64,000 nucleotides of DNA from Sinorhizobium sp. 8-89. GTDB taxonomy: Bacteria > Pseudomonadota > Alphaproteobacteria > Rhizobiales > Rhizobiaceae. The stretch spans positions 1-64,000 of the forward strand of contig NZ_JASKLR010000023.1 in assembly GCF_030124325.1 (NCBI RefSeq), read 5' to 3'. Under the pieces are notes generated by a model. The model was not told the DNA's origin, ran no database searches, and worked only from the letters and a program-made list of their open reading frames with translations. Below, in pieces: positions 16,390 through 56,212 of this stretch. Both the position numbers and the translations under genes were made by a program. The first letter of the stretch is position 1. Each line of letters starts with the position of its first letter.

Positions 16390-16391
16390 CG

Positions 16392-35638: not shown

Positions 35639-35829
35639 GCTTTCTCTCTCCCTAGACGAAGCGTTGCTCGCGGTTTCACAGAGCGACGCCAATGTCGGCG
35701 TTGGCTTTTCGTTATTGAAGGGCCGCATTTCGACGTTGGATAGAGCCACTTCCCGGCCCCCCTAAATGCGGAACAAATTCAGAAAGGCCCGCGCGTGCTT
35801 TCGGTGAGCCGAAACACGCTCTCAACTAC

Positions 35830-38452: not shown

Positions 38453-39634
38453 CTATACCGTTTCGACAGAGGAGAGACCGATTTCAGCCAACACCTCTTT
38501 GGTATGCTCCCCCAATGCCGCTGCCGGTCGGCGCGAAACAAGTGGCGTTTTCTCCATGCGGAGAGGTTCCACGACAACCTTATATTGACCGCCGTAAGGG
38601 GTATTAACGTCTTGGATGATCCCCGTTTCGACCACCGCGGGGTCAGCAAGCGCTTCGCCAAGTGTGCGGACAGGCGCAGTCCAGGTGCCTGTCGGCTCAA
38701 TTATCGCCGTGGCTTCGGCAATGCTCATGGTTGCAAGGCGCTTGGCAATTTTTCCAGCAATTTGATCCCGATTGAAGCGGATCTTCTGCTCAGTGATATC
38801 CTCTTCGGTCAAGTCTTCGATTTGTAGCGCGATAACGAGTTTTTTGACCATCGGTACGCCACCAAATGTCGACAGGACAATCGCCCCATCCTTCACTTGA
38901 TACACACCGTAAGGAGCCGATTGGTTGACATGGGCAATCCCAGCGCTGCTTCTGATCGGATTGGGATTAACGTTGAGGATGTAGGAAGCTTCCTGTGACA
39001 TCAGAAACATCGACGATGACATCATGTCCGCGCGTACAGCTTGCCCCTCGCCAGTCGCGTCCCGGTGGCGTAGCGCTGCGAGGATACCCACTAGGACCTG
39101 CATCGCGGTGAAGCCGTCAATAATGTACGCGCCCACGGGGATTGGAGGGCCGTCACCCCGACCGGTCAGGGACGCGATTCCGCTCAGCGCTTGGATCAGA
39201 AGATCCTGTCCCGGGCGGTCGCCCGCCGAACCTTCGGGATCATATGCCGAGATTGACGCATAGATAATGCGTGGATTGATTTTCTTGACCTCCTCGTATC
39301 CCAGGCCTAGCTTTTCCATCACGCCCGGACGATAGTTCTCAATCAGCACGTCGCTTGATGCTATCAGGGCCTTCGCAGCGGTTAAGCCATCCTCAGTCTT
39401 GAGATTCAAGCAAGCATTGCGCTGATTGCGGTTCGTCACGACAAAATAGGGGCTGATGCCCTGCAGATGACCGTCCGGATCGCGCAACGCGTATCGATTT
39501 ACGTCCTGAGCCGGGCTCTCGATTTTAATCACATCGGCGCCCAAAGAACCCATGTATTGAGCTGCGATCGGGCCGGCAGCAAAATGTGTGAAAGCAACGA
39601 CGCGGATTCCGTCAAGTGCAGTCTTAGGCATCAT
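38453..39634 (-). CDS. Family III CoA transferase (CaiB/Frc type)
   Basis: 393 aa. It moves CoA between carboxylic acids. Family segments: GIRVVAFTHFAAGPIAAQYMGSLGADVIKIE at the N-terminus, LNLKTEDGL and LIENYRPGVMEKLGLGYEEVKK, and GQDLLIQALSGIASLTG, where the aspartate corresponds to the catalytic Asp that forms the acyl anhydride in formyl-CoA transferase. Its start overlaps the stop of the acyl-CoA dehydrogenase gene by 4 bp (ATGA), so the two are translationally coupled. It would activate the imported acid as its CoA ester. Last gene of the five-gene minus-strand operon. Confidence 0.93.
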   Translation of the reverse strand: MMPKTALDGIRVVAFTHFAAGPIAAQYMGSLGADVIKIESPAQDVNRYALRDPDGHLQGISPYFVVTNRNQRNACLNLKTEDGLTAAKALIASSDVLIENYRPGVMEKLGLGYEEVKKINPRIIYASISAYDPEGSAGDRPGQDLLIQALSGIASLTGRGDGPPIPVGAYIIDGFTAMQVLVGILAALRHRDATGEGQAVRADMMSSSMFLMSQEASYILNVNPNPIRSSAGIAHVNQSAPYGVYQVKDGAIVLSTFGGVPMVKKLVIALQIEDLTEEDITEQKIRFNRDQIAGKIAKRLATMSIAEATAIIEPTGTWTAPVRTLGEALADPAVVETGIIQDVNTPYGGQYKVVVEPLRMEKTPLVSRRPAAALGEHTKEVLAEIGLSSVETV

Positions 39635-40776
39635 GCAGCCTCCTTCTTAAGGTGACGTGCAATGATCATTCGTTGCACTTGGTTGGTTCCATCCCAGATC
39701 TGATGAATTTTCGCATCCCGGAAGAGCCGCTCGATCGGATATTCCTTGGAGTAGCAATAGCCGCCAAAGATCTGCATGGCGTTGGTTACGTTTCTCATGC
39801 ACATGTCGCCGGCAAATGTCTTCGCAAGCGATGTGGCGAACGTGAAGGGCTGGTCGGCATCTCGTAGTGCCGCGGCATTATGCATCAGAAGCCGAGCAGC
39901 CTCGATCTCGATCGCCATGTCGGCAAGCATGAACTGTACCGATTGGAAGTCGAAAACAGGCTGACGGAATTGTTCGCGTTCAAGCGAGTATTTCAGTGCG
40001 ACGTCCATAGCGGCCTGAGCGACGCCCACTGCCATCGCGGCTGCACCCAAGCGGCCAGCGCCATCAAGTCCGTGCATCACTGCTCGAAATCCTTCGTCTC
40101 CACCAAGCTGCTGGCTTTTGGAGATCCTGCAATTGTCGAAGAATACCGGCGCTGTCGCGAAGCCGCGGATGCCCATCAGGTCGAGCTTCTCGCCGAAATT
40201 GAGGCCCGGGGTTCCCCTTTCGACGATATAAGTGCGAACGCCTTTGGAGCGTTGCGACTTGTCGACTGTTGCGACAACAATAAAGAAGTCGGCGACGAGG
40301 GCGCCTGAAATCCACATCTTCTGGCCATTGAGAATGACGTCATCGTCCTCGATGGTAGCAGTGGTAGTTAGAGAAGCGGCGTCGGAACCAGCGTTTGGTT
40401 CGGTAAGGCAAAAGCTGCAAAGCGATTCGCCACTGGCAAGGCGCGGAAGATATTTCTGCTTTTGCTCCTCAGTGCCCATCGCGACAAGATAGTGCACCAT
40501 AGATTCCGTAAGAGTAACGCCGTTGGCCACTGCGGAGGACGCTTTGGCGATCTCCTCAACAACCATGCACCAGGTAACGGTATCTGCACCGCTTCCACCG
40601 TATTCCACTGGAGCTGTCATGCCGAGGAGCCCGAGCTCACCGAGTCTCTTGTGAAGCCCCCGGTCAAACGTTGAAGTTTCGTCGATTTGACGAGCTTTGG
40701 GTGCGATCTCCTCAGCAGCAAATCGTCGTGCCATGTCTTTAATGGCGCCTTGCTCTGGAGTTAACGTAGCGTGCAT
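39631..40776 (-). CDS. Acyl-CoA dehydrogenase
   Basis: 381 aa FAD enzyme that forms an alpha-beta double bond in an acyl-CoA. FAD and substrate motifs: LCSFCLTEPNAGSDAASL (about 125-142) and MWISGALVADFF. The C-terminal signature reads MQIFGGYCYSKEYPIERLFRDAKIHQIWDGTNQVQR. At the position of the usual catalytic glutamate (YEGTNQ) this protein has aspartate (WDGTNQ), which could change rate or chain-length range, or mean another residue is the base. The gene starts 7 bp after the permease stop, a rare direct coupling of transporter and dehydrogenase. Electrons would go to EtfAB at 47.6 kb. Confidence 0.93.
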   Translation of the reverse strand: MHATLTPEQGAIKDMARRFAAEEIAPKARQIDETSTFDRGLHKRLGELGLLGMTAPVEYGGSGADTVTWCMVVEEIAKASSAVANGVTLTESMVHYLVAMGTEEQKQKYLPRLASGESLCSFCLTEPNAGSDAASLTTTATIEDDDVILNGQKMWISGALVADFFIVVATVDKSQRSKGVRTYIVERGTPGLNFGEKLDLMGIRGFATAPVFFDNCRISKSQQLGGDEGFRAVMHGLDGAGRLGAAAMAVGVAQAAMDVALKYSLEREQFRQPVFDFQSVQFMLADMAIEIEAARLLMHNAAALRDADQPFTFATSLAKTFAGDMCMRNVTNAMQIFGGYCYSKEYPIERLFRDAKIHQIWDGTNQVQRMIIARHLKKEAA

Positions 40777-40783
40777 AGTGCAA

Positions 40784-41629
40784 TCATCCCTTTACTGCGC
40801 CAGCGCCGAGGCCAGCCATGAAGTGCTTTTGAATGAGGAGGAAAAGGATCACGGGCGGTAGCGTGAAGATCGTTGCAGCCGCCAGAATTTGATCCCAGGG
40901 CGTCACATAAATCCCTATGAAGGACGCCAGTCCCACAGTACCAACCCACTTGTCTGTCGCCGTAACGACCGTGCGCGCGAACATGAATTCGTCCCACCCA
41001 TTGATGAAGGTAAAGACGGAGACGGCGACCAGTCCGGGAAGCGCGATTGGCAAGGTGATGCGGGTCATAATGAAGAACCAGGACGCACCATCGACGCGAG
41101 CAGCCTCTTCTATTTCCACGGGGATCGTGTCAAAAATTGACTTCATCATCCAGATCACGACGGGAAGCGAAAACGCGAAGTTTCCAATGACTAGGCCGAA
41201 AAGCGTGTCCGTCAGATTCAAGCTAATATAGATTGTGTAGATCGGGATGATCAGGACGAGCGGAGGCATCATCTGCGTCGTGAGAACGATAAGCGCCAGA
41301 GAAGACTTTGCGCGATACCTGAACCGGGACAGCCCATAAGCGCCGGAGATACCCGCGGCCAAAGCGAGCACCGTGGATCCAACGGCAACCACGAGCGAGT
41401 TCCAAAGCCAGAGGACTATTTCTGTGCTGTTTAGTAGGCCGACATACGCATGGAAGTCATAAGACTGGGGCACTAACTTCGGCGGGTAGGCAAAGATTGC
41501 TCCGTTCGAATCCATGGAGGTTTTGAACATCCAGTAGAACGGGAACAATACCGCGACAAGAAGAATGACAAGTGCCACGTAGAATGCTGCTGACCAGAGC
41601 AACTGCTTTGTCTCATGTATTTTAGTCAT
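40784..41629 (-). CDS. CUT1 sugar-type ABC permease (MalG/UgpE-like)
   Basis: 281 aa inner-membrane protein with six hydrophobic segments, the first being AFYVALVILLVAVLFPFYWMF. The EAA loop is EIEEAARVDGASWFFIMTRITLPIALPG (about 190-218), which docks with the UgpC-like ATPase. It overlaps the upstream permease gene by 4 bp. With the permease at 41626 and the binding protein at 42622 it makes the only complete CUT1 transporter in this window. Confidence 0.93.
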   Translation of the reverse strand: MTKIHETKQLLWSAAFYVALVILLVAVLFPFYWMFKTSMDSNGAIFAYPPKLVPQSYDFHAYVGLLNSTEIVLWLWNSLVVAVGSTVLALAAGISGAYGLSRFRYRAKSSLALIVLTTQMMPPLVLIIPIYTIYISLNLTDTLFGLVIGNFAFSLPVVIWMMKSIFDTIPVEIEEAARVDGASWFFIMTRITLPIALPGLVAVSVFTFINGWDEFMFARTVVTATDKWVGTVGLASFIGIYVTPWDQILAAATIFTLPPVILFLLIQKHFMAGLGAGAVKG

Positions 41630-42585
41630 CGCTGGCTTCCTTTCCGATAAACCAGAGCAAGGTACGCTGCCGAGAATGTGAGAGACAGGAGCAGAACAAT
41701 TGCGCCGATCGCGCTGGCAGTGCCTACGTGGAAAAACTTGAAGGCTTCAAGGTAGCTGCGTACCACGATGGTTTCTGTGCAACCGGCCGGCCCGCCCTCT
41801 GTCAGAAGGAAGATTGCTGTGAAGCTCCACCCGAAGCTCCAAATCGCAATCAGGAGCGTGAGCATGACTGTTACACCGCGTAAGCCGGGTAGGGTGACAT
41901 GCCTGAATGCCTGGATGGGGCCGGCCCCGTCGATCTTTGCGGCTTCGTAGTATTCGGACGGTATGGTCTGCAAGCCCGCCAAGTACATCACCGTGCCGAA
42001 CGGCACGAGCTTCCAGATCGACAGAGCACCTACGCTATAGAAGGCTGACGGGCATGCCGTGAGGAAGTTGACCTTGTTTGACGCAAGGCCAATCGCATTG
42101 ATCAGGTAATTCAGTACGCCAAATTCATAGTCATACATCCAACCCCATACGATACCTGCTGCAACGTACGGCACCGCCCAAGGCAAAAAGAACAATGCAC
42201 GGACGAGACCCCGCCCCGGAAATTTCCTATCCAGCATCAGGGCAATCGCCAGCGAGAAGCCGCATACGAAGATGACATTGCCAACGGTCCAAAATAACGA
42301 AGTCCTCATCACCGTTGGAAACCAGTCGCTTGCGATGACCTCTCGATAGTTCTGAAGGCCAATAAAGTGAGCCGCGCTTCCGATGTTATTCGAGTAGAAG
42401 CTGATAACGATCGCGTGGATCATCGGGTAAAAAAATACGACCGCCAAGGCGAGGAAACTTGGCAGAAGAAACGCGTAAGGCACCAGCGCCTCCCGTTTCT
42501 GGTAGCCGAACCACCGGCGCCGTTGTTCCACCTCCATGTTCAATGCGGCCGCTTGAGTGCCGCTTCTCTGTATCTCGCTGTTCAT
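41626..42585 (-). CDS. CUT1 sugar-type ABC permease (MalF/UgpA-like)
   Basis: 319 aa inner-membrane protein. A polar ~35-residue N-terminus precedes VPYAFLLPSFLALAVVFFYPMIH, the first membrane segment; the EAA loop is EYYEAAKIDGAGPIQAFRHVTLPGLRG (about 215-240). It lies 36 bp after the binding-protein gene and overlaps the next permease. GGGGAAACGCG precedes its ATG. Family membership is clear; the sugar is not. Confidence 0.93.
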   Translation of the reverse strand: MNSEIQRSGTQAAALNMEVEQRRRWFGYQKREALVPYAFLLPSFLALAVVFFYPMIHAIVISFYSNNIGSAAHFIGLQNYREVIASDWFPTVMRTSLFWTVGNVIFVCGFSLAIALMLDRKFPGRGLVRALFFLPWAVPYVAAGIVWGWMYDYEFGVLNYLINAIGLASNKVNFLTACPSAFYSVGALSIWKLVPFGTVMYLAGLQTIPSEYYEAAKIDGAGPIQAFRHVTLPGLRGVTVMLTLLIAIWSFGWSFTAIFLLTEGGPAGCTETIVVRSYLEAFKFFHVGTASAIGAIVLLLSLTFSAAYLALVYRKGSQR

Positions 42586-42621
42586 CTCGCGTTTCCCCTG
42601 CGATTTTGACGTTCAAAAAAC

Positions 42622-43860
42622 TCAGTGCTTTGTCGCAATGAACGTTGTGAGCTTTTGTTGAAGGCTGTTCGCTGTCTCCTCTGGAGAGAGGCCTTGGAAG
42701 AGCATGTTCTCCACGCCTTCGGAAACGATCTTGATGATCTCCGGTCCGTACTGCTCCGCGCCTTCGGGCGCATAGGAACGAGCAGAGAGAGATGCGCTCT
42801 CGAATGCCTTGAACCACGGATTTTGATCGAAGAACGTGGCAGGCAACATATTCACGCGGCCTGGGTAAGCCTTGCCGATCTGCGCGATCTTCAGCTGGAA
42901 ATCGTCTTTGAGCATCCGCATTAGCACAGCGGCGGCAGCATCTTTGTTCTTGGCGCCTTTGGGGATCCCAAGGAACACAGTGACCGAGACTGTCTGATGG
43001 CCCGGGAACGGCAATGGAACTGCGCGCAGATCCTTGTAGACGTCCTTGTCTGCGTTCTCAACAACGCCAGCAATGAAGGAGCCAGCTGCGTACATGCCAA
43101 CCTTCCCATGGGCAAACATGTCACGATAGACGCCGGTTTCGACGCCCCGTGGTATTAAGTTTTCATCGAAAAGTTGCTTGTAAAGCTTAAGTGCAGCAAT
43201 CGTTTCGGGCGAATTGGCACTCGGACGTCCTTCCTTGAAGAAGCCGCCGCCGAATCCTACGATCAAAGGCGAAATTTCGATATAATTCAGGCTAGCATTG
43301 CCGGGCTTGGATGCAGTGGCATACCCGAATTGCTGCGCCGCAGGTTGGCGCAATTTCTTGGCCGCCTCCAGAAACGTCGCCGAGTCTTTGGGAGGCTGCA
43401 GCCCAGCCTCGCGAAATAATTTTTCATTATAGAAAAGCGCGCGGGCGTTAACGACAACCGGCACGGCATAAATATGTCCGTCCTTCTGTCCAAGGGAAGC
43501 GGTAGGTACAAAACTGGAGCGATCAATGCCGGCCGCCCCCAGGTAGTCGTCAAGAGTTTCTAGAAGACCTTGCTCGATATAAGAACGAACATCGGGATCG
43601 TAGAAGGTACCAATATCCGGCGGGTTTCCATTGCTCACGTCAGCAAACTGCTTGTCCCAAAAAGTTGAGACCGGGATCAGTACATTGTTGATGTGATCCT
43701 GGGGATGCTCCTTCTCGTACGTGCCTTTCAGTTCCTTGAGGGCGGGCGCCAGTCCAGGATCATTCCAAAGAAAGCTCGGCCATTCGATATCCGCCGCATG
43801 GCTCACAGTCGACGTAAGCGCAAAGCCGAAGGCGATTGCGGCTCTTTTGAAGGCTTTCAT
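42622..43860 (-). CDS. CUT1-type ABC substrate-binding protein, paralogue 4
   Basis: 412 aa, first gene of the minus-strand operon and the only one of the four paralogues linked to permeases. Signal peptide at 1-22 (RAAIAFGFALTSTVSHAAD). Shared segments: FWDKQFADVSNGNPPDIGTFYD, LGIPKGAKNKDAAAAVL and YAPEGAEQYGPEIIKIVSEGVENMLF. GGGAGGAGTCAC precedes the ATG. Its promoter must lie in the ~90 bp before the divergent iclR gene, next to the palindrome at 43951, so control by that IclR is very likely. Confidence 0.93.
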   Translation of the reverse strand: MKAFKRAAIAFGFALTSTVSHAADIEWPSFLWNDPGLAPALKELKGTYEKEHPQDHINNVLIPVSTFWDKQFADVSNGNPPDIGTFYDPDVRSYIEQGLLETLDDYLGAAGIDRSSFVPTASLGQKDGHIYAVPVVVNARALFYNEKLFREAGLQPPKDSATFLEAAKKLRQPAAQQFGYATASKPGNASLNYIEISPLIVGFGGGFFKEGRPSANSPETIAALKLYKQLFDENLIPRGVETGVYRDMFAHGKVGMYAAGSFIAGVVENADKDVYKDLRAVPLPFPGHQTVSVTVFLGIPKGAKNKDAAAAVLMRMLKDDFQLKIAQIGKAYPGRVNMLPATFFDQNPWFKAFESASLSARSYAPEGAEQYGPEIIKIVSEGVENMLFQGLSPEETANSLQQKLTTFIATKH

Positions 43861-43950
43861 GTGACTCCTCCCGGGACCATTTGATTGATTGAGCGAACTT
43901 AGCAGGTTGACCGTCGTCGAAAAGGAGTCTACCTTGAAACGAGTTCTTAA

Positions 43951-43965
43951 TGGAATGGTATTCCA
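43951..43965. promoter_or_regulatory. IclR operator candidate 2
   Basis: TGGAATGGTATTCCA, a perfect dyad with 6-bp arms and a 3-bp centre, in the divergent interval between the transporter operon and iclR. It overlaps an upstream in-frame ATG of iclR (43950). A TTGAAA at 43934-43939 may be part of a plus-strand promoter. One bound regulator could control both directions. Confidence 0.7.
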
Positions 43966-43970
43966 CGCAG

Positions 43971-44780
43971 ATGAAGGTTGTCAACTCGCTTATCGAAAAT
44001 TGCTTTGCAATCATCGAGCTTCTGGCAACGGAAGCGCAGAGCATGCGCCTTTCGGACTTGGCAGACAGGCTTGAATTGCAAAGGAGCGGCGCCCATCGCG
44101 TCCTGACGACGCTCGTCGGTTTGGGGTGGGTGGAGCAAGACGATGCCACAGACTTTTACCGCCTGTCGTTGAAGCTGCCAGCCATAGGTTATCGCTTTAT
44201 GCAGGCGGCATCGTTACCGGATGTGTTGCAGCCTGTACTGGATAGACTCGCTCGAAGCAGCCGAGAACTTATCCGGCTGGCTGCGCTCGTAAGTGAAAAT
44301 CTAACGACGGTTGCCCACGCTCAAGGAGCCCAGGGAAGCCTAATCTGCCGCTCGCGAACATTTCCCGTCCTGCCACTTCACGTCAGCGCAAGCGGCAAGG
44401 TTTGGCTGGCAACACTGTCGCGTGAAGCTGCGCTCAAACGTGCGCTGGAGGCAGGGCTTGGCAAGCCGGGCAGTTATGGCCCGCGCGAAATCAAGACCGT
44501 AGATGAGTTCATGTCTGAACTCGACCGCACTGCAGCAAGAGGTTACGGGATTGCGCTGGAGGAAGCCGAAGAAGCAATCGGCGCCGTTGCGGCTCCAATC
44601 GTCACGACCTCTGGTCAATTCGTAGGGTCGCTCGCCATCGTTGCGCCAGCCTTTCGCTTAAATGAAGCACGACTGGAGGAACTTGGTGCGCAGGCAAAAG
44701 CTAGCGCAGCAGAGCTTGCGCTGGTGTGGCCCCTCCGCTCCGTGGCCGGATCTGATTCAGGCGAAGGCGACGCAGCATGA
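43971..44780 (+). CDS. IclR-family transcriptional regulator, second copy
   Basis: 269 aa. The winged helix (residues 1-65) reads SLIENCFAIIELLATEAQSMR and LADRLELQRSGAHRVLTTLVGLGWVE; the effector domain has TFPVLPLHVSASGKVWLATL and RGYGIALEEAEEAIGAVAAP. It is a close paralogue of the protein at 16392, and both begin MKVxNSLxENCFA. The ATG at 43971 is preferred because the upstream one (43950) is inside the operator. It heads the plus-strand operon with the KdsB-like gene 58 bp later and is divergent from the transporter operon, its probable target. Confidence 0.92.
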   Translation: MKVVNSLIENCFAIIELLATEAQSMRLSDLADRLELQRSGAHRVLTTLVGLGWVEQDDATDFYRLSLKLPAIGYRFMQAASLPDVLQPVLDRLARSSRELIRLAALVSENLTTVAHAQGAQGSLICRSRTFPVLPLHVSASGKVWLATLSREAALKRALEAGLGKPGSYGPREIKTVDEFMSELDRTAARGYGIALEEAEEAIGAVAAPIVTTSGQFVGSLAIVAPAFRLNEARLEELGAQAKASAAELALVWPLRSVAGSDSGEGDAA

Positions 44781-44838
44781 ACATTACATTGATCGGTGAC
44801 TTTCCTCGCGAAACAGATGCGTCACGGTGGAGGAAGCC

Positions 44839-45591
44839 ATGAAACCAGTCGTCGTTATTCCCGCGCGAATGGATTCGAGCAGGCTTCCTGGCAAGCCTCT
44901 TGCTGACATTCACGGAGAGCCGATGATCCGGCATGTGCTTCGCAGAGGTGTGGAAGCGGGTTTGGGCCCTGTGTTGATCGCCGCCGGGGACCAGGTGATC
45001 GCTGATGCGCTTGTGGGAACGGGTGCCAACGTCATTTTGACGGAGACCGATCTTGCATCTGGGTCGGACAGATGCCACGCGGCGTTGTCAAGCTTTGATC
45101 CTGATCGAATATACGACGTTGTCGTAAACCTGCAGGGCGACATGCCCACGTTCTCACCGCTTTTATTGCGCAAAGCAATTTCTGTACTCGAAACCCTTAA
45201 TGTCGACATCGTCACGCTGGCAACTCCTGTATCTGATCCGTCTGAAGCGGAGCGCACGGCGGTCGTCAAGGTGGCTGTAGAGCCCTCAAAAGAGGATTCT
45301 CTGATGGGTAGAGCCATCTACTTCAGTCGGTCACCGGTCCCGCATGGGGCACGTAACCTTCTGCATCACATCGGGCTGTATGTTTACCGACGCGACGCAC
45401 TCGACCGTTTTGTAGCCGCCCAGCCATCCCAACTTGAACGCCTTGAAAAACTTGAGCAACTAAGAGCTCTTGCCTTGGGTCTGACCATCGGTGTCGCAGT
45501 TGTTGATACACTGCCTCTTGGGGTCGACACTCACGACGACCTCGAAGAAGCCCGCCGCCGATTAGCTCTATCTGCACAGAGGACGTCATGA
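44839..45591 (+). CDS. KdsB-like cytidylyltransferase
   Basis: 250 aa protein of the CMP-Kdo synthetase family, which couples CTP to 3-deoxy-octulosonate-type acidic sugars. Motifs: IPARMDSSRLPGKPLADIHGEPMI (nucleotide loop), LASGSDRCHAAL (usual SGTDR), VVVNLQGDMPTFSP (usual NxQGDxP), and HHIGLYVYRRDAL. The residue after QGD is methionine where many enzymes have glutamate or leucine. The organism must also have a chromosomal kdsB for lipopolysaccharide, so this is an extra copy. GGAGGAAGCC precedes ATG 44839. Overlap of 4 bp with the next gene shows coupling. Confidence 0.87.
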   Translation: MKPVVVIPARMDSSRLPGKPLADIHGEPMIRHVLRRGVEAGLGPVLIAAGDQVIADALVGTGANVILTETDLASGSDRCHAALSSFDPDRIYDVVVNLQGDMPTFSPLLLRKAISVLETLNVDIVTLATPVSDPSEAERTAVVKVAVEPSKEDSLMGRAIYFSRSPVPHGARNLLHHIGLYVYRRDALDRFVAAQPSQLERLEKLEQLRALALGLTIGVAVVDTLPLGVDTHDDLEEARRRLALSAQRTS

Positions 45592-46418
45592 ATAAAAATC
45601 TTCACGAGGCGTCTTTACGATTGGTAGGAAAGCGGAGGAATACCCGCTCCGGCGAGGTAAGCCTATCCGGCATTGGCGCGCTAAGCGATGCGTATAAGGT
45701 ACAGGCACAAACACGCCTGCTCCTTGCCGCTTCTATTGTCGGTTGGAAGGCTTCACTACAGGCGAATGGAGCCCTGTTATCAGCACCACTGTTTGATTGC
45801 GACACGTTTCATAGCGGCAGCAAAGTGCCGTTTGTCGGGCGAATTGGTCACGGGGTCGAATGTGAGCTCGCTTTCCTAATCGACGATCCATTGCCGCCAC
45901 GGCCGTGTCATGGCTACACAAAATCTGAGGTCCTTTCGCACGTCAGTGGCGTAGTACCAGTATTTGAGATGCTGGAGAGCCGCCTAGTCGACGGGTTCGG
46001 GTCGTCTCAAGCACATCTCGTGGCCGACAACCTGGGCAATGGGGGAGTTGTGCTGGGTATGCCGATGTATGGCGGGCAGCATCGAGGCTTAGCAGAGATC
46101 GGCATCACGGTTAATATCGATCGTAAGGTTATCCTTTCGAAGCGTTACACCCACCCTGCAGGTGATCCGGTGGATGTGCTGGTTGCCCTGGCAAATCATT
46201 TGGCCGACCGAGGATTGGTATTGGAAGCCGGTCAATTCGTTATCACCGGTTCCTATACGCCCGCGCAAAAGGTCTTGCCGGGCGCCCTTATCACAGCCTC
46301 GTTCGATGGGTTCAACCCTGTCACGCTTCGAGTTGCGGCCGAGGAAGAGCCGCCAACACTCGCGGCAGCCGCCCACATAGAAGGCGCATCCCTCCACAGG
46401 CAGATGCCTCAAAAGTAA
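45588..46418 (+). CDS. 2-keto-4-pentenoate hydratase-like protein
   Basis: 276 aa protein of the MhpD/FAH-fold family. GHGVECELAFLIDDPLPPRP keeps the E-x-E metal site (usual VEPEIAF), then YTKSEVLSHVSGVVPVFEMLESRL and DNLGNGGVVLGMP. The C-terminus has ITGSYTPAQKVLPGALITASFDG, matching the usual TGS...PG...V.A.F.G ending. Members hydrate or decarboxylate 2-keto acids in meta-cleavage and related pathways. Overlap with the KdsB-like gene is notable, since both families handle 2-keto-acid compounds; a shared substrate is possible but unproven. Confidence 0.78.
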   Translation: MNKNLHEASLRLVGKRRNTRSGEVSLSGIGALSDAYKVQAQTRLLLAASIVGWKASLQANGALLSAPLFDCDTFHSGSKVPFVGRIGHGVECELAFLIDDPLPPRPCHGYTKSEVLSHVSGVVPVFEMLESRLVDGFGSSQAHLVADNLGNGGVVLGMPMYGGQHRGLAEIGITVNIDRKVILSKRYTHPAGDPVDVLVALANHLADRGLVLEAGQFVITGSYTPAQKVLPGALITASFDGFNPVTLRVAAEEEPPTLAAAAHIEGASLHRQMPQK

Positions 46419-46444
46419 ACCAAACAACTAAGGGAACACCGCAC

Positions 46445-47521
46445 ATGGCAAATTTGAAAATCGCAAATCTCCGCAAGGCGTACGGCAATTATCCCGTCAT
46501 CCATGGAGTTGACATTAACATCGCGCATGGTGAGTTCGTGATTCTCGTGGGCCCCTCCGGCTGCGGGAAGTCAACGTTGCTGCGCATGATCGCTGGTCTC
46601 GAATCCATCAATTCCGGAGAAATCCGCATCGGGGAAAGGGTCGTCAACGACATTTCTCCGAAAGAGCGTGACATCGCGATGGTGTTTCAAAACTATGCGC
46701 TCTATCCGAATATGACGGTCGCGCAAAATATGGGATTCGCGCTCAGACTGCAGAGAGCCTCTAAATCGGATATCAGTCAGCGCGTATCTAATGCAGCGAG
46801 TATCCTCGGACTTGAGAAATTGCTCGACAGATATCCCCGCGAACTGTCAGGTGGTCAACGTCAGCGCGTTGCAATGGGAAGAGCGATTGTGCGGGACCCG
46901 AAGGTGTTCCTTTTTGATGAGCCTCTTTCCAACCTGGATGCGAAGTTGCGCGTATCAATGCGATCGGAGATCAAGGCTCTGCATCAGCGCTTGGGCAGCA
47001 CGATTGTGTACGTGACGCACGACCAGATCGAAGCGATGACGATGGCAGATAAAATCGTCGTGATGCATGATGGCATTGTGGAGCAGATCGGCACTCCGTT
47101 GGACCTCTACGATAGTCCCGCAAACTTGTTTGTCGCAGGTTTCATTGGCTCTCCAGCGATGAACTTCGTGAAGGGAACGCTGACCACAACGGGAATGAAA
47201 GATGACAGCGGCACGATCTGGAACATCGCAGAAGATCGAGGGAACGTCGTTGGGAAACCGGTTACGCTTGGAATCAGACCGGAACATATTCGGCTTGATC
47301 CTCAAGGATACAAGGCGAAAGTATACGTCGTTGAGTCAACCGGCTCTGAGACTCAGATTATCGCTGATGTCGGGCAGACGAGACTCACATGCCTCATCCG
47401 GGAGCGCATCGAGGTCCGGGTGGGCGATGAAATTTCAATCGGCTTCGATCCTTCAATCGCACACCTCTTCGACGGCGCCACGGGGGAACGTATTGTTGGC
47501 ACGAGCAGACTCGCAGCGTAA
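46445..47521 (+). CDS. CUT1 ABC transporter ATP-binding protein (UgpC/MalK-like)
   Basis: 358 aa. Walker A GPSGCGKSTLLRM (about 37-49), signature LSGGQRQRVAMGRAIVRDP (about 134), Walker B VFLFDEPLSNLDAKLR, and switch histidine in YVTHDQIEAMTMADK; TOBE-type domains fill residues 240-358. It is separated from its probable membrane partners at 40784-42585 by the divergent promoter region but controlled from the same site. It is the only sugar-type ATPase in the window, so it may energise transport for all four binding proteins. Confidence 0.93.
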   Translation: MANLKIANLRKAYGNYPVIHGVDINIAHGEFVILVGPSGCGKSTLLRMIAGLESINSGEIRIGERVVNDISPKERDIAMVFQNYALYPNMTVAQNMGFALRLQRASKSDISQRVSNAASILGLEKLLDRYPRELSGGQRQRVAMGRAIVRDPKVFLFDEPLSNLDAKLRVSMRSEIKALHQRLGSTIVYVTHDQIEAMTMADKIVVMHDGIVEQIGTPLDLYDSPANLFVAGFIGSPAMNFVKGTLTTTGMKDDSGTIWNIAEDRGNVVGKPVTLGIRPEHIRLDPQGYKAKVYVVESTGSETQIIADVGQTRLTCLIRERIEVRVGDEISIGFDPSIAHLFDGATGERIVGTSRLAA

Positions 47522-47638
47522 GCAGTTTGAACTCTTGTTACGTGCTGCGAGGTACTCAGCACTTGTGCGCACAATAGCAAGTTGACTAGTGCGCCTTTTG
47601 GCGCGCTGCTCATTGATAACAGACAGGTGAGCATTACA

Positions 47639-48388
47639 ATGAAAATTCTCGTCCCCGTGAAGCGGGTGGTTGATTACAACGTGAAGATCCGCGTGAAGTC
47701 GGATGGCACGGGTGTTGAGCTTGCCAATGTGAAGATGTCGATGAACCCGTTCGACGAGATCTCGGTCGAGGAGGCGCTGCGGCTGAAGGAAGCCGGCAAG
47801 GCCGAGGAGGTGATCGTCGTGTCGATCGGTCCGGCCAAGGCCGAAGAGACGCTGCGCACGGCGCTTGCGATGGGTGCCGACCGCGCCATCCTCGTGGAGA
47901 CCGACGACGCCGTCGAACCGCTCGCCGTCGCCAAGATCCTCAAGGGCGTCGTCGACGCCGAACAGCCGGGGCTGATCATCGTCGGCAAGCAGGCGATCGA
48001 CGACGACTCGAACCAGACCGGCCAGATGCTGGCGGCGCTGCTCGGCACCGCGCAGGCGACCTTCGCCTCGAAGATCGAGATCGGCGACGGCAAGGCTGAG
48101 GTAACGCGCGAGGTCGATGGCGGTCTGCAGACGATCGAGATCAAGCTTCCGGCCGTCGTCACCACCGATCTGCGCTTGAACGAGCCGCGCTACGCTTCGC
48201 TGCCGAACATCATGAAGGCGAAGAAGAAGCCGCTCGACAAGAATAGCCCAACCGACTTCGGCGTCTCCACCGCCCCGCGTCTGAAGGTGCTGAAGACCGA
48301 GGAGCCATCCGGCCGCAAGGCGGGCGTCAAAGTCAAGTCGGTCGCCGAGCTGGTCGAGAAGCTGAAGACCGAAGCTGGCGTCCTCTAG
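47639..48388 (+). CDS. etfB: Electron transfer flavoprotein beta subunit
   Basis: 249 aa. It starts [20 protein letters not shown], has [17 protein letters not shown], the AMP-site region [22 protein letters not shown] and the recognition-loop sequence [29 protein letters not shown], all typical of alphaproteobacterial EtfB. GC content and G/C-ending codons rise sharply at this gene relative to those before it. It is paired with etfA 24 bp later, and probably accepts electrons from the acyl-CoA dehydrogenase at 39631. Core genomes carry etfBA too, so this is probably an extra set. Confidence 0.96.
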
Positions 48389-48412
48389 GGTTCGACAAAG
48401 GGAGATATATCC

Positions 48413-49357
48413 ATGGCCATTCTTCTTCTGGCTGATCACGACGGCAATCACCTTTCCGACCAGACCGCCAAGACGCTGACGGCCGCAACGCAGATCGGCG
48501 GTGACATTCACATTCTAGTCGCCGGCAAGGACGCAAAGGCCGCCGCCGACGCGGCTGCCAAGCTCTCCGATGTGTCCAAGGTGCTGCTCGCTGAGGGCGA
48601 AGCATTTGGTCACAGCCTAGCGGAACCACTTGCCGAACTAATCTACTCCATTGCGGCGGACTATGAAACGATCATCGCCGCGGCCAGCTCGACCGGCAAG
48701 AACGTTATACCACGCGTCGCCGCCCTGCTCGACGTCGCCCAGGTTTCGGAAATCATCGAGGTCGTCTCCTCCGATACCTTCAGACGGCCGATCTATGCCG
48801 GCAACGCCATCCAGACGGTGCAGACAACCGATTCTAAGAAGGTGATCACCGTACGTACCGCCTCCTTTTCCCAGGCCAGTTCCCAAGGCCTACCTGCTGC
48901 CGTTGAGGAAATCTCGACGGCAGCCTTTTCTTCCGACCTATCGCGCTTCGTTACCGATGTGCTGTCGACGTCTGAACGTCCGGAGCTGACCTCGGCGAAG
49001 ATCATTATCTCGGGTGGACGGGCGCTCGGCTCGTCGGAAAAGTTCAAGGAAGTGATCCTGCCGGTTGCCGACAAGCTCGGGGCTGCCGTCGGTGCCAGTC
49101 GCGCGGCCGTCGATGCCGGTTTCGCCCCGAACGACTGCCAGGTCGGCCAGACAGGCAAGGTGGTCGCCCCCGACCTCTACATCGCCTGCGGCATTTCCGG
49201 GGCCATCCAGCATCTCGCCGGCATGAAGGACAGTAAGGTCATCGTTGCCATCAACAAGGATGAAGAGGCGCCGATTTTCCAGATCGCCGACTATGGCCTC
49301 GTTGCCGATCTGTTTGAGGTGCTGCCAGAGTTCCAACGGCAGATTACGAAGGTCTGA
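48413..49357 (+). CDS. etfA: Electron transfer flavoprotein alpha subunit
   Basis: 314 aa. The N-terminus is [18 protein letters not shown]; the FAD domain carries [65 protein letters not shown] and [21 protein letters not shown]. Complete and intact. GGGAGATATATCC precedes the ATG. With EtfB it passes electrons to ETF-QO, which is encoded 9.4 kb downstream. The base composition is GC-rich with some mixed patches, like etfB. Confidence 0.96.
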
Positions 49358-49407
49358 CTACTTAGCCGCCAGTTGCGAGGTCATAGATTTCTCTCTGGTC
49401 TAATTGA

Positions 49408-49422
49408 TTGGAAACGAATTCC
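49408..49422. promoter_or_regulatory. IclR operator candidate 3
   Basis: TGGAAACGAATTCCG fits TGGAA-N5-TTCCA with one mismatch and lies at the start of the third iclR gene, the same relative place as the sites at 16375 and 43951. Confidence 0.45.
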
Positions 49423-50245
49423 GTTTTGGAGTTTTTCACGAACCCGGAGATATGGATGACAGTCGCCGCCGTAACGAGATGCCAAATTTTGGCTGGAGAG
49501 CCTGATCCGGTTGAGCTTTCAGAATTGGCCGGTCGACTTGATATGCCGGCGAGTGCAGTGCATCGACTACTCGCGACTCTGGCTGGTCAAGGCTGGGTAA
49601 TACAGGATACGACAAGTCAAAAGTATGCACTTTCTTTAAGGATGAGCACATTGGCCTTTCGCAATCTCGATGCTCGAAATGTCCCAGATGGCGCAATCCA
49701 TTTTAGATAAGCTGGCCTTGCAAACTCGGGAATATTGTCGATTGGCTATATTGGAGGGCCAGGACTTGGTTTGGGTTGCTCGCGCGCAAGGTGCTATTAG
49801 CGGACTGAAGTATGATCCCGACATGGGGCAGGAGATAATCCTGCACGCTACGGCGAACGGGAAGGCTTGGCTTGCAACACTGCCGGAGGAGGAAGCGCTT
49901 TCGATTGCATATTCAAGGGGCTTTGGCGGCTCCCGCAAGCTCGGCCCAAATAGCGCACGCAATGTTGACGAGCTTCGAGAGAAGCTAGCTGAGACACGGC
50001 GTCAGGGCTTCGCGACTTCATTGGAAGAGGCCGAAGCAGGTACCGCGGCTGTCGCGATCCCGTTTCGAGATAATTCCAGTTCCAACGCAAGGGTTGCCGG
50101 CACCGTATCGGTCGCCGGGCCCATGGTTCGGATAACACCAGATCGCTGGCAAGAGCTTGCGGCCGCACTTAATCAGGCGGCGGCTGAACTTAGTCAGATC
50201 TGGCCACTCCGCAACCGTCAACGCACCGCGGTCCGTCCCAGATGA
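49408..50245 (+). pseudogene. Frameshifted IclR-family regulator
   Basis: The HTH part (TTG start at 49408; PVELSELAGRLDMPASAVHRLLATLAGQGW) runs to AFRNLD, where the frame shifts; the effector domain continues one frame over as EMSQMAQSILDKLALQTREYCRLAI to AAELSQIWPLRNRQR at 50245. Removing one base near 49669 restores a single ~278-codon gene. It is therefore a single-indel pseudogene, a sequencing error, or unusual recoding. A variant of the IclR operator pattern, TGGAAACGAATTCCG, overlaps the start (49408-49422), as at the two intact iclR genes. Confidence 0.82.
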
Positions 50246-50300
50246 CCCTGGGTGTGAGCAACTGCTGCTGCAGAGATTACTTGATGGGTTTATCGTCGAG

Positions 50301-51152
50301 ATGTCTTTAACTGAAAGTTCCTCAAGATCTGTCGTCATTAACCACGCGACAGTTCGAGAACGCGCCGATATGACGACTCTCGTTCGACTTTGTGCCGAAC
50401 GAGACATTCGGGTGGTCTCCGTTTGGGGCAACGAGATCGACAGGGTCGGAGAGGCTGAAGCGCTGAATGCTCTTCGCGAACATGGCATCACCGTCTCCGG
50501 CTACAACCGAATTGTCCCGTTCACTCCTGGATATCTGGAGCAGGCACGGTTCGAACTCGAAAGAGCTGCGAGGTTTGGCGCTGATCACGTCTTCCTTTTT
50601 ACCGGCGGTCTTGCGCAAGGAGATCGCGATCTCGGTATGGCTCGACGCCGTGTCGAAGACGAGATGGGTCACTTGCTGGAGATCGCAAAGCCCCTTGGAA
50701 TGAAGCTGGCAATCGAGCCTCTCCACCCAATGCTAACCGGCGATCGAACCGTCGTTGCGAGTGTTTCCCACGCAAATGATCTCTGCGAAACGCTCGGACC
50801 GGGTATCGGGATCGTCATTGATGTATACCACGTCTGGTGGGATGAGCGGCTGGAATCGGAAATCCACCGCGCAGGAAGTGCCGGCCGGTTGCTTGGGTTC
50901 CACGTTAACGATTGGTTGCTTCCGACCAAGCACCTTCTCACCGACAGAGGCATGATGGGCGACGGGATCATAGATCTTGCCGCCATCGATCGTCTAATGC
51001 GGGAGGCAGGTTTTGAGGGTCCTGTCAAGGTGGAATTGTTTTCTAGGGATTGGTGGGAGCGCGATCCGGCCGAAGTGCTGGATGTCGCGCTTTCCCGTTG
51101 TGAACAAATTTTTGGGGGCACTCAACGTGCAGGAACAGATACCCAATCTTAA
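50301..51152 (+). CDS. TIM-barrel sugar isomerase/epimerase-like protein
   Basis: 283 aa protein of the AP-endonuclease-2/xylose-isomerase-like family. Metal-site segments: MKLAIEPLHPMLTGDRTVV (glutamate, about 150), GIVIDVYHVWWDERLE (aspartate and histidine, about 190), FHVNDWLLPTKHLLTDRGMMGDGIIDL (histidine and aspartate, about 220) and VKVELFSRDWW (glutamate, about 255). The family includes inosose dehydratase and 3-dehydroshikimate dehydratase as well as sugar epimerases. The ATG at 50301 begins just before the first barrel strand. Its 3' end overlaps the shikimate-dehydrogenase-like gene, so the two products probably act in sequence. Confidence 0.82.
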   Translation: MSLTESSSRSVVINHATVRERADMTTLVRLCAERDIRVVSVWGNEIDRVGEAEALNALREHGITVSGYNRIVPFTPGYLEQARFELERAARFGADHVFLFTGGLAQGDRDLGMARRRVEDEMGHLLEIAKPLGMKLAIEPLHPMLTGDRTVVASVSHANDLCETLGPGIGIVIDVYHVWWDERLESEIHRAGSAGRLLGFHVNDWLLPTKHLLTDRGMMGDGIIDLAAIDRLMREAGFEGPVKVELFSRDWWERDPAEVLDVALSRCEQIFGGTQRAGTDTQS

Positions 51153-51957
51153 CGGTCACTCACGCGTCTACGCCGTCTTTGGCGATCCTATTACGCAGGT
51201 GCAGACGCCACACTTAATTAATCCGATCTTTGCTGCAGCGGGTGCCAACCTTTACGCTGTCCCCTTCCACGTCAGATCGGCAGATTTTGACGCTGCCTGG
51301 GATGCATTCTCAGAAATGTCCAACCTAGCTGGCATTGGTGTTACGGTACCCCACAAGGTGGCGGCCTGCGGACGGTGTTCAACCTTGACACCTACAGCGA
51401 AAGCGGTTGGAGCAGTCAACTCGGTTCAGCGCGGCCTCGATGGCCGCATGCACGGAGCGCTGTTTGATGGACAGGGCTTTATCGACGGCTTGGGTAAAGC
51501 GAAGGAGCGTTTGCGCGATGCTCGCGTGCTAATGGTTGGAGCAGGAGGCGCCGGGCGTGCCATCGCTTTTGCCCTCGCGGCTGAGGGCGTCGCTCGACTG
51601 GAGATCATCGATCCAAACGCTACTGCGCTTACGTTCACCGTGGACATGTTCAACGCTGCGAAAAGAAGCGGTCGCGCCAAGGGGGCAGATGCCACAGGGG
51701 GGTGGGACTACGACATCATCATAAATGCTTCGCCGATCGGAATCAAAGGAGCCGCTCACTTCCCAATGCCGGAGGAGTTGCTTCGGCGCGACATGCTTGT
51801 CGCGGACATCGCCAGCCTGACAGCGGAGACGCCCCTTTTGCAAGCGGCACGTGCTGCCGGTGCCACAGTATCGGACGGCAATGATATGCTGGCCGCTCAG
51901 ATCAGGTTGATAGCGGGATTTGCTGCGGGATTTGAAGCGGGTACTCCTCTTAGTTAG
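51127..51957 (+). CDS. Shikimate-dehydrogenase-like oxidoreductase, paralogue A
   Basis: 276 aa AroE-family protein. Substrate domain: VYAVFGDPITQVQTPHLINPIF (usual GxPIxHSxSP, here with Q-T-P) and GIGVTVPHKVAACGRC with the catalytic lysine; NAD domain: VLMVGAGGAGRAIAFALAAEG. The C-terminus SDGNDMLAAQIRLIAGFA matches the fragment at 2566-2800. A GTG start at 51127 with GGGGGCACTC before it is preferred. Loss of the usual serines in the substrate loop suggests a substrate other than shikimate. It overlaps the TIM-barrel gene by 26 bp. Confidence 0.85.
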   Translation: MQEQIPNLNGHSRVYAVFGDPITQVQTPHLINPIFAAAGANLYAVPFHVRSADFDAAWDAFSEMSNLAGIGVTVPHKVAACGRCSTLTPTAKAVGAVNSVQRGLDGRMHGALFDGQGFIDGLGKAKERLRDARVLMVGAGGAGRAIAFALAAEGVARLEIIDPNATALTFTVDMFNAAKRSGRAKGADATGGWDYDIIINASPIGIKGAAHFPMPEELLRRDMLVADIASLTAETPLLQAARAAGATVSDGNDMLAAQIRLIAGFAAGFEAGTPLS

Positions 51958-52068
51958 CGTTGCGCAGAGTCGAGTTTCAGCGCGGGACCTTAGGGAGTCT
52001 AGAGCTAGGCGGCACAGAGCCCTTCTCGTTGGCGAGGGCGCATGCAGGACCTCAAACGGAAAGATAAG

Positions 52069-53355
52069 ATGGCAATCACATCGAAAGCTTGGATCAGGGA
52101 TCTAGTTGAAGAAACTCCGCTCATTGATACGCACGAGCATCTGGTAGAGGAACCGCGCAGGTTCTCGGGCGTGATCGACACAATGTTCCGATGCGACGAC
52201 TGGCCGCTTTTGTTCAGGGACTACGTCTTAGAAGATCTCCATAGTGCTGGCATGAGCACGGTTGAGGAAGAGCAGTTTTATGACCCAGATTTGTCTTCCG
52301 TAGACAAATTCAGTGTTATATCACCTTATTGGGAGCGCATCCGCCATACCGGCTATGCTCAAGCGTTAAGCATAACATTTAGAGAGCTCTATGGCATCGC
52401 TTCTCTTTCATCAAACACTGTTGAGGAATTGGCGGATAAATACCATCAGGTAAAAAAACCTGGCTTTTACAATTACGTTCTGAAGGACGTTTGCCGCATC
52501 TCGGAATGTCACGTGCACTCCGTCGAACGCATTTTCATGGAAACTGCCCAACCTGCACTCCTGAAGCAAGACCTTAGCATAATGGAGCTTACTAGGTGCA
52601 GCCTCACGGACATCCGCAGAGTTGAAGAAGAGATGGGATTAACAATCAGCTCCTTCGACGACTGGCTAAAGACCATCGATACCTACTTCGAGCGGTTTGG
52701 AACGAAAGCAGTCGCCGTCAAATATCAAGGCGCATACTACAGAGGACTTCGATTTGCCCACGTGGAGCGACACGTTGCCGAAAAGCAATTCAAGACCCTG
52801 ATTGCCCCTAGACCTTATCTCGGTCCAGAGGGCGCACAGGCATTGGAAGATTACCTGTTTCATTACTGCATGAAAAAAGCTCAGGATTTCAAGCTGCCCG
52901 TCAAGCTACACACTGGCTACTATGCAGCGAAAAGCAACATGCCGCTCGTCCGGATAAGAGATAACGCAGTCGACGTGTGTCGGCTATTAGAGGACTATCC
53001 CGGGATCAACTTTGTGCTCATGCACATTGGATATCCATATCAGGATGAGTACATTGCACTCTGCAAGCAATATAGCAACGCGTATGTCGATCTCTGCTGG
53101 GCATGGATAATCAACCCTGTTGCATGCGTCAGATTCCTGGCCGAGTTTCTGATGGCGGTACCAGCCAACAAGGTTTTGATATTCGGCGGAGACTATATTG
53201 CCGTCGAGAATGTGGTTGGGCATGCAGCGATCGCGCGCGCGGGTCTTACCGAGACAATCTCATCCTTGGTAGAGCGTGGTTGGCTCGGAGCCGAAAACGT
53301 GCCCGAGCTTCTGGATCGCCTCATGCGTCGGAACGCTCATGAGCTTTTCAGGTGA
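52069..53355 (+). CDS. Amidohydrolase-superfamily protein (amidohydrolase_2 type)
   Basis: 428 aa. The first metal site is LIDTHEHLVEEP (H-x-H, about residue 20); KLPVKLHTGYYA gives the barrel histidine near 275, VLMHIGYPYQDE the next near 310, and LIFGGDYIAVENVVGHAA the final aspartate near 370. The family includes uronate-isomerase-like and decarboxylating hydrolases. ATG 52069 is chosen, after ACGGAAAGATAAG; an ATG nine codons upstream is possible. It is the last gene of the plus-strand operon and overlaps the end of the convergent gene by 8 bp. A fragment of a relative lies at 21943. Confidence 0.85.
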   Translation: MAITSKAWIRDLVEETPLIDTHEHLVEEPRRFSGVIDTMFRCDDWPLLFRDYVLEDLHSAGMSTVEEEQFYDPDLSSVDKFSVISPYWERIRHTGYAQALSITFRELYGIASLSSNTVEELADKYHQVKKPGFYNYVLKDVCRISECHVHSVERIFMETAQPALLKQDLSIMELTRCSLTDIRRVEEEMGLTISSFDDWLKTIDTYFERFGTKAVAVKYQGAYYRGLRFAHVERHVAEKQFKTLIAPRPYLGPEGAQALEDYLFHYCMKKAQDFKLPVKLHTGYYAAKSNMPLVRIRDNAVDVCRLLEDYPGINFVLMHIGYPYQDEYIALCKQYSNAYVDLCWAWIINPVACVRFLAEFLMAVPANKVLIFGGDYIAVENVVGHAAIARAGLTETISSLVERGWLGAENVPELLDRLMRRNAHELFR

Positions 53356-54163
53356 CCTCGCCCCAGATTTCGCAGATGTGGTCCGCAATAAGATCAACCT
53401 GGCTATTGATCATGTGCATGCCCGAGTGGGTCTCAACGCCCCGTGCTTTTGCCTGCAATAAAAGGGGTGTGATTTCTGGCTCAGCGATAACCTCAGCAAC
53501 GGTCATTCCGGGCTTCAGCACAACGGGGTCGAAGGGGAGGGGATCCGCCGTCTTCAGGCCAAGCGACGTGGCATTGATAACGAGCTGCCCGGCTGTGGAT
53601 ACGGGGTTCCCGGCCCTGGCGACGCTACGTCTGAAATAGGAATTCACCGCTCCTGCTAAAGCCTCAGCCTTTTCAACGGTGCGGTTCGAGACGACAACCC
53701 TTTTTGCTCCCGCCTCGACAAGTGCGAAGGCGATGGCGATCGCGGCGCCGCCCGCGCCGACCAACAGCACATCCCGGTCCTCGGTGGCGACTTTTCTTGA
53801 TCGCAAGCCACGGACGAAGCCCTTTCCATCGAATTGGTACCCACGGAAGCTGCCGTCCCGTTCGCGACGCACGAGATTGACCGCGCCGACCCGGTCGGCG
53901 ACCGGATCAAGCGTGTCGCAGAGTCCGATGGCAGTCTGCTTGTATGGCAGAGTAATGCCGAACCCCACGAGGTTCGGCATCGCCTTCAGTCCCGCCCAGA
54001 TCGTGGAAAGATCGGCGGGGGGTACATGCAACGGCACGCATGCGATGTCGACGCTGCGAGCCACAAAGATGGGATTGATAGCAGAGGGTGACTTTGCCTG
54101 AGCTATTGGATCACCGATCAGCCCCAGCAACCTTGTCGTCCCTTTGATCTCGACACTCACCAA
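53348..54163 (-). CDS. Shikimate-dehydrogenase-like oxidoreductase, paralogue B
   Basis: 271 aa AroE-family protein, quite different from paralogue A. LLGLIGDPIAQAKSPSAINPIF (S-P retained), FGITLPYKQTAIGLCDTL with the catalytic lysine, GAVNLVRRERDGSFRGYQFDG, VLLVGAGGAAIAIAFALVEAGA and INATSLGLKTADPLPFD. The substrate loop is closer to true AroE but still atypical. Its start overlaps the beta-propeller gene's end by 7 bp, so it is second in a minus-strand operon. Biosynthetic aroE should be elsewhere; this copy probably serves catabolism of a hydroxylated cyclic or linear acid. Confidence 0.88.
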   Translation of the reverse strand: MVSVEIKGTTRLLGLIGDPIAQAKSPSAINPIFVARSVDIACVPLHVPPADLSTIWAGLKAMPNLVGFGITLPYKQTAIGLCDTLDPVADRVGAVNLVRRERDGSFRGYQFDGKGFVRGLRSRKVATEDRDVLLVGAGGAAIAIAFALVEAGAKRVVVSNRTVEKAEALAGAVNSYFRRSVARAGNPVSTAGQLVINATSLGLKTADPLPFDPVVLKPGMTVAEVIAEPEITPLLLQAKARGVETHSGMHMINSQVDLIADHICEIWGEVT

Positions 54164-56203: not shown

Positions 56204-56212
56204 AGTACGAAG

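Follow-up and report, generated by a model that had tools for sequence, protein, structure and literature searches.

A probable plasmid-type catabolic cassette of Sinorhizobium sp. 8-89 that may join a propeller–AroE gene pair to a sugar-type importer and a coenzyme A arm

The 64,000-nucleotide stretch analysed here (the window) comprises positions 1 to 64,000 of contig NZ_JASKLR010000023.1 (C19; 78,050 bases) in the 7.06 Mb genome of Sinorhizobium sp. 8-89 (GCF_030124325.1). It carries a cassette, probably of plasmid type and some 22–25 kb long, that extends from 38453 to 60388 and probably on to the end of a pyruvate carboxylase gene at 63874 (Table 1). The cassette is real, unusual and catabolic, and its parts are of known kinds. 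From gene families, gene order and distribution we propose, with a probability of roughly 0.55, that it combines a widespread core—centred on an FG-GAP/VCBS propeller gene and an AroE-fold dehydrogenase gene, AroE2—with an ABC importer of the CUT1 type and a coenzyme A (CoA) arm, and that it serves the oxidative catabolism of a sugar-like or cyclitol-like compound to pyruvate and a CoA ester.

Gene order conserved in other Rhizobiales, which an earlier note on this DNA had proposed searching for, is found in Sinorhizobium chiapasense ITTG S70, where plasmid pSchITTGS70b (253846-279316) has the same gene set, colinear and identically oriented, at 60–92% protein identity. The order is CaiB–acyl-CoA dehydrogenase (ACAD)–permease–permease–solute-binding protein (SBP) / IclR1–KdsB–FAA hydrolase (FAAH)–UgpC–EtfB–EtfA–IclR2–TIM barrel–AroE1 / AroE2–propeller / DapA–PfkB–LysE-like–ETF-ubiquinone oxidoreductase (ETF-QO), and its retention at this level of identity is, judging from the sequences, more than chance. 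These genes are annotated there only separately, the AroE-fold and propeller proteins simply as shikimate dehydrogenase, ThiF family and VCBS repeat-containing protein. The S. chiapasense copy differs from the window in having no amidohydrolase gene, an intact IclR2 (seen in a DNA alignment) and, after ETF-QO, only a 5′ stub of pyruvate carboxylase (codons 4-42, 87%).

The earlier note had described the five minus-strand genes, from SBP to CaiB, as an operon with gaps of 36 bp or less or overlaps; its positions and spacings (36 bp, a 4-bp overlap, 7 bp and a 4-bp overlap) are exact, and all five products exceed Pfam cut-offs. The plus-strand genes it named are also present by Pfam, but a further IclR gene, disrupted by a frameshift and located after EtfA and before the TIM barrel, had been overlooked. 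The earlier view that these genes form one operon ending at 53355 was not confirmed: beyond AroE1 and the amidohydrolase gene the cassette goes on with AroE2, the propeller and the DapA-like, PfkB, LysE-like and ETF-QO genes.

Related loci were collected by scanning genome contigs with a propeller alignment and two exact peptide patterns, which yielded 26 loci and misses more distant propellers. For counting, the partial locus L063 was dropped and L036 added, giving 26 stretches that extend no more than 10 kb to either side of the propeller (several are shorter), with genes called by a codon-position-GC method and from tblastn tables with identity thresholds. The propeller is present in all 26 by construction and AroE2 in 25, adjacent to it in every one; the TIM barrel is found in 21, IclR2 in 20, DapA in 18, AroE1 in 16, PfkB in nine and the LysE-like gene in seven, and CaiB, ACAD and FAAH occur in two each. 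KdsB, EtfA, EtfB, ETF-QO, SBP, both permeases, IclR1 and UgpC (at 70%) are each seen once, always in S. chiapasense. Missing SBP, permease and ACAD matches are weak evidence given this reach, as the window's own SBP, permease, ACAD and CaiB genes lie 10–18 kb from its propeller; whole genomes were searched for CaiB (24 propeller genomes, that of L051 not included) and for SBP (three genomes). The widespread heart of the cassette is the propeller–AroE2 pair with the TIM barrel, DapA-like, IclR2 and AroE1 genes. The amidohydrolase, listed in the earlier note as a member of the set, occurs in none of the 26 stretches, has a GC content of 0.498 compared with 0.565 for the window, and is probably an insert between AroE1 and AroE2.

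The importers beside the core vary. They are of the NMT1-type ABC class (binding-protein cluster c6 in 10 loci, one member tested), the TRAP class with DctP (L053 tested, L061 assigned by its cluster mate), or a distant CUT1 type accompanied by GFO/IDH/MocA, SMP-30 and AKR genes, and because they differ, the core does not need the CUT1 set of the window. Plasmid pMspAR07d of Mesorhizobium sp. AR07 shares FAAH, IclR2, the TIM barrel, AroE2–propeller, DapA, PfkB and the LysE-like gene with the window, but in its 24.7-kb stretch there is no CaiB, ACAD, Etf, KdsB or CUT1 match (the best CaiB of that genome is 38% identical), and class III aminotransferase genes and a GFO/IDH/MocA gene lie nearby. 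Judging by record titles, the core occurs in plant-associated and marine-named bacteria alike. At L053 (14419-21862, Pararhizobium ih9), TRAP, GFO/IDH/MocA, TauE/SafE and gamma-glutamyltranspeptidase genes lie near the core; these neighbours may hint at a nitrogen-containing substrate in that strain.

The CoA arm is probably tied to the core through its CaiB-type family III CoA-transferase. The window, S. chiapasense and Woeseiaceae (G475) proteins form a clade with 100/100 support against 19 distinct background CaiBs (20 rows, two identical), and no ortholog above 50% identity turned up outside these three; a generic CaiB (34%) with an ACAD of 31% at L045 was excluded from the ortholog counts. 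Broad searches, in which the best few candidates per genome were scored, found the CaiB ortholog in the own genome only among 397 genomes of the order (E 1e-120), and the propeller profile in one of 398 genomes of the phylum, the own one. Within the genus, two of 33 genomes have the CaiB ortholog (the own one and G007, the S. chiapasense counterpart), one of 196 genomes in the order of G475 has the clade (G475 itself; E 1e-110), and among 1,223 plasmid records with a CaiB match the only one above 60% is S. chiapasense. In the Woeseiaceae genome the CaiB ortholog lies some 5 kb from a propeller gene, and the same stretch carries genes for an ACAD (49%) and a PfkB (37%) and one with weak similarity to DapA. 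Because a rare CaiB clade is near the propeller in this lineage too, the coupling, which rests on two independent lineages, is probably real; the CoA link that the earlier note had seen at the locus is supported by a non-generic CaiB in two unrelated lineages.

Neither AroE protein reaches the curated cut-offs for shikimate dehydrogenases. Against the NCBIfam shikimate/quinate dehydrogenase equivalogs AroE2 scores 164.7 (cut-off 252) and 156.4 (cut-off 200.2), and AroE1 scores 146.2 (cut-off 200.2). Both keep the family Lys and Asp (TLPYK/TVPHK and FDG align with TIPHK and TDG of 2egg), which we take to be the catalytic residues; the HSxSP motif of 2egg, whose serines presumably bind the substrate carboxylate, reads QAKSP in AroE2 and QVQTP in AroE1, without the serine pattern. 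PDB relatives of AroE2 are 5-ketofructose reductase (7cok) and the shikimate-dehydrogenase-family protein 4k28, with modest scores of 94.8 and 126.9 bits. The Tatumella 5-ketofructose reductase is described as related to shikimate dehydrogenases in PMC7954740.

The propeller is predicted to fold as two five-bladed propellers and is the candidate core enzyme. It has no sequence relative in the PDB at E 0.1. Foldseek matches were mostly DDB1 chains (TMq 0.27–0.43, root-mean-square deviation 10.8–26) and were judged uninformative; with VIA-align the same candidates gave GH43-type folds, a match to GH43/GH32 at fold level alone, with ~10% identity and no GH Pfam match. The closest known systems may include aldos-2-ulose dehydratase (PDB 4a7k) and other enzymes of the VCBS propeller kind.

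The ACAD has a WDGTN loop where its three closest PDB homologues have YEGT, placing Asp at the position of the canonical catalytic Glu; the loop recurs in the S. chiapasense and Woeseiaceae ACADs, and an ACAD paralog in the own genome (L096) reads WDGTS, likewise with Asp. According to PMC11659651, the catalytic Glu is conserved in most but not all ACADs, and smaller residues precede the catalytic acid in those acting on alpha-substituted substrates. A cyclohexanecarboxyl-CoA route, an idea raised by the Asp, was rejected on the grounds that the paralog carries the same residue and that Trp precedes the acid here.

These features bear on a quinate/shikimate or cyclitol-acid variant, in which the AroEs would oxidise a ring hydroxyl, the TIM barrel dehydrate the product and CaiB and ACAD act on the CoA ester of the ring carboxylate. 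The AroE fold with its Lys and Asp would suit it, the TIM-barrel fold is common to dehydroshikimate and inosose dehydratases, and the ACAD scores 301 bits with the cyclohexane-1-carbonyl-CoA dehydrogenase model. That score is, however, far below the cut-off of 650 (a second cyclohexanecarboxyl-CoA dehydrogenase model gives 222 against 575), both AroEs fall under every listed shikimate-dehydrogenase cut-off with the HSxSP motif altered, the Trp of the ACAD departs from the smaller residues that PMC11659651 reports for alpha-substituted substrates, and there is no dehydroquinate dehydratase among the scanned cassette genes; we regard this variant as unlikely.

In the pathway we favour, a sugar-like, probably carboxylated or keto-bearing compound would be imported by the SBP, the two permeases and the UgpC-type ATPase, which together constitute a CUT1 ABC importer (SBP_bac_1, two BPD_transp_1 permeases and a MalK/UgpC-type ATPase, all above Pfam and NF008653 cut-offs). 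The AroE-fold dehydrogenases and the TIM barrel would generate a ketone or move its position; the propeller, encoded next to AroE2, would catalyse an elimination or break a bond adjacent to that ketone. The resulting 2-oxo acid may then be converted by the DapA-family and FAA-hydrolase-family enzymes to pyruvate and a fragment for the PfkB kinase; the lysine of the LKD motif in the DapA-like protein is also present in four relatives compared. Pyruvate could refill oxaloacetate through the pyruvate carboxylase, which is a second copy, because another lies on C38 of the own genome. A carboxylate fragment or side chain would be activated by CaiB and oxidised by the ACAD, whose electrons would pass through EtfBA and ETF-QO to ubiquinone, and IclR1 would regulate from the divergent promoter. 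Among the substrates suggested earlier, sugar acids and cyclitol acids survive, with a keto-sugar besides, whereas carnitine-type and ordinary shikimate/quinate enzymes fail the curated cut-offs.

The KdsB paralog could fit a 3-deoxy-2-ulosonate-like intermediate. It passes three NCBIfam KdsB models (312.7 vs 281, 222.8 vs 193 and 176.5 vs 155.2), falls under two (207.9 vs 255 and 195.1 vs 234), and is a second copy, 50% identical to the housekeeping KdsB of the genome and alike in motifs. The locus could on this basis be read as degrading an ulosonic acid, Kdo or another, that derives from plant pectin or bacterial glycans, through the action of KdsB and the DapA/NanA- and FAAH-family enzymes on a 2-keto-3-deoxy acid. 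Such a route gives no role to the AroE or CoA enzymes, a KdsB ortholog is present in a single one of the 26 stretches, which cover up to 10 kb either side of the propeller, and CMP activation consumes CTP and usually belongs to biosynthesis; we consider it distinctly improbable. Least credible of all is a carnitine- or betaine-type CoA pathway with a sugar-type importer. In E. coli cai/fix a family III CoA-transferase, an ACAD and an Etf pair likewise occur together, and CaiB, ACAD and EtfBA resemble that set, but the importer and the other genes differ, the cassette has no betaine-type importer, and the window proteins score far under the curated cut-offs of the cai/fix models (CaiB 99.8 vs 413, crotonobetainyl-CoA dehydrogenase 168.2 vs 540, FixA-type 70 vs 219).

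Several observations weigh against a single joint pathway. Sharing a fold is no proof of function. In PMC7954740 a presumed shikimate dehydrogenase that resembles 5-ketofructose reductase showed no activity towards 5-ketofructose, so likeness to this enzyme predicts little, and the KdsB paralog has no explained place in the scheme. In the ACAD tree no clade of cassette proteins was resolved (bootstrap 29%, with one fragmentary row), and the 22-kb Woeseiaceae stretch that was fetched contains no AroE2, EtfBA, TIM-barrel or CUT1 ortholog. The pathway may also be dispensable, because IclR2 is disrupted in the window and a further EtfB–EtfA–IclR2–TIM–AroE1 copy, located at one end of the genome's contig C30 (56-3994, L068), is partly decayed: its EtfB, EtfA and AroE1 genes are broken or truncated, and IclR2 and the TIM barrel are still open. 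Furthermore, of the 24 propeller genomes that were searched in full, 23 do not contain this CaiB, the best CaiB there being at most 41% identical (matches at E 1e-60), so the core works without CaiB, and each of the two parts could have its own compound. That the combination of CUT1 importer, CoA activation and beta-oxidation defines the system, as the earlier note took it to, is not supported: the core is widespread, nearly always without this CaiB and elsewhere with NMT1-type ABC or TRAP importers.

The alternative that draws most on these facts, still a doubtful one, is that two independent units lie side by side: CUT1/CaiB/ACAD/Etf under IclR1 and propeller–AroE–DapA under IclR2, each for its own compound. 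The presence of two IclR genes, the genomes without this CaiB and the core beside other importers are all in keeping with it. S. chiapasense, however, keeps the order despite its divergence, and in Woeseiaceae the CaiB clade lies close to the propeller though each is rare (1/196 for the CaiB clade and 1/398 for the propeller profile).

If the joint pathway is correct, it is an undescribed one whose central enzymes have no assigned reaction, AroE-fold and VCBS-propeller proteins would gain a new reaction, and a core pathway would have acquired importers and a redox-linked CoA branch while moving between replicons. The locus offers a divergent promoter, a CoA-transferase clade that is rare, and sets of genes that can be tested. 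More tentatively, and at well under even odds, the propeller–AroE2 pair might be a new two-enzyme module, in which an AroE-fold dehydrogenase produces a keto-sugar or keto-cyclitol and a cytoplasmic tandem five-bladed FG-GAP propeller acts on it, as dehydratase or lyase. The pathway would have spread through the Rhizobiales and beyond with changing importers; in Sinorhizobium it would have been joined by the CoA/ETF branch, and perhaps by a CMP-ulosonate step, to deal with a special substrate of plant origin. As the earlier note had held, no described pathway with this gene set came to light: in open-access full text, no paper was found for the gene-name combinations tried, nor for SMc04130 or 7VPF, and no catabolic cluster was found for mycosporine-like compounds as candidate substrates.

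Table 1. Cassette genes of the window and the evidence for their assignment; identities are to the S. chiapasense counterparts.
Feature	Position	Strand	Evidence	Identity
CaiB-type family III CoA-transferase	38453-39634	-	PF02515, 333.6 bits; under every listed NCBIfam cut-off	
ACAD	39631-40776	-	domain architecture over Pfam cut-offs	
CUT1-type permease (MalG/UgpE side)	40784-41629	-	PF00528, NCBIfam neighbours	83%
CUT1-type permease (MalF/UgpA side)	41626-42585	-	PF00528, NCBIfam neighbours	77%
Solute-binding protein, SBP_bac_1	42622-43860	-	PF01547, 106.8 bits	83%
IclR1, at divergent promoter	43950-44780	+	PF01614, PF09339	84%
KdsB paralog (CMP-ulosonate synthetase family, CTP_transf_3)	44827-45591	+	3/5 NCBIfam KdsB models passed	
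FAA-hydrolase-superfamily 2-oxo-acid hydratase/decarboxylase-like	45588-46418	+	PF01557, 28.0 bits (cut-off 23.9)	60%
UgpC/MalK-type ABC ATPase, completes CUT1 importer	46445-47521	+	NF008653, 500.8 bits (cut-off 432)	
EtfB	47582-48388	+	PF01012	
EtfA	48413-49357	+	PF01012, PF00766	
IclR2, disrupted	49408-50245	+	two frames, 49408-49710 and 49670-50245	
Xylose-isomerase-like TIM barrel (SMc04130-like)	50157-51152	+	PF01261; PDB 3ju2, 3qc0, 7vpf	77%
AroE1, shikimate-dehydrogenase fold	51013-51957	+	PF08501; nearest solved 4k28	
Amidohydro_2	52042-53355	+	Pfam	
AroE2	53348-54163	-	adjoins and overlaps propeller gene	
FG-GAP/VCBS propeller protein, 657 aa	54157-56130	-	PF13517, 69.8 bits	
DapA/NanA-family aldolase or dehydratase	56198-57145	+	PF00701	88%
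PfkB-family sugar kinase	57151-58080	+	PF00294	
LysE-like small membrane protein	58145-58717	+	assigned by eye, no Pfam match	
ETF-QO	58727-60388	+	PF05187, PF21162	90%
Pyruvate carboxylase	60410-63874	+	21 bp behind ETF-QO	

Judged from the sizes of the S. chiapasense proteins, the true starts of the TIM barrel and AroE1 are probably near 50300 and 51127. The nearest solved structure to the FAAH protein is NahK, and its Mesorhizobium AR07 counterpart is 52% identical. IclR2 is intact on C30 of the own genome as well as in S. chiapasense. No convincing inverted repeat was seen around the divergent promoter, and an Rfam scan of the window gave no match.

C19 is probably plasmid or conjugative-element DNA, because conjugation-type genes, for T2SSE and a TraG P-loop (TraG-type) ATPase, lie on it ~9–13 kb past the window (L123 8810-13004). 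Five related binding proteins are encoded on it within ~42 kb (26658, 29514, 34391, 42640 and 67762), 39–63% identical where compared. The four extra ones (26658-27980, 29436-30773, 34385-35749 and C19 67762-68967) are 39–43% identical to the cassette SBP, and all five family members found in the own genome at E 1e-40 are on C19; at this threshold S. chiapasense has one, and three genomes tested (G459, G461 and G475) have none. Closely related permeases on C19 are limited to those of the cassette, a distant ABC set at 6239-10261 being 25.7% identical to one of them, and the four extra binding proteins may feed the cassette importer and broaden its intake.

Elsewhere in the window, a further IclR gene at 16335-17198 is 58% identical to IclR1, and beside it there is a weak integrase-core match (17212-18297), just under the Pfam cut-off. 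A protein like the N,N-dimethylformamidase beta subunit (PF20254) is encoded at 19794-21470, with a histone-deacetylase-family protein (30951-32042) and an amidase (32742-34241) in its vicinity.

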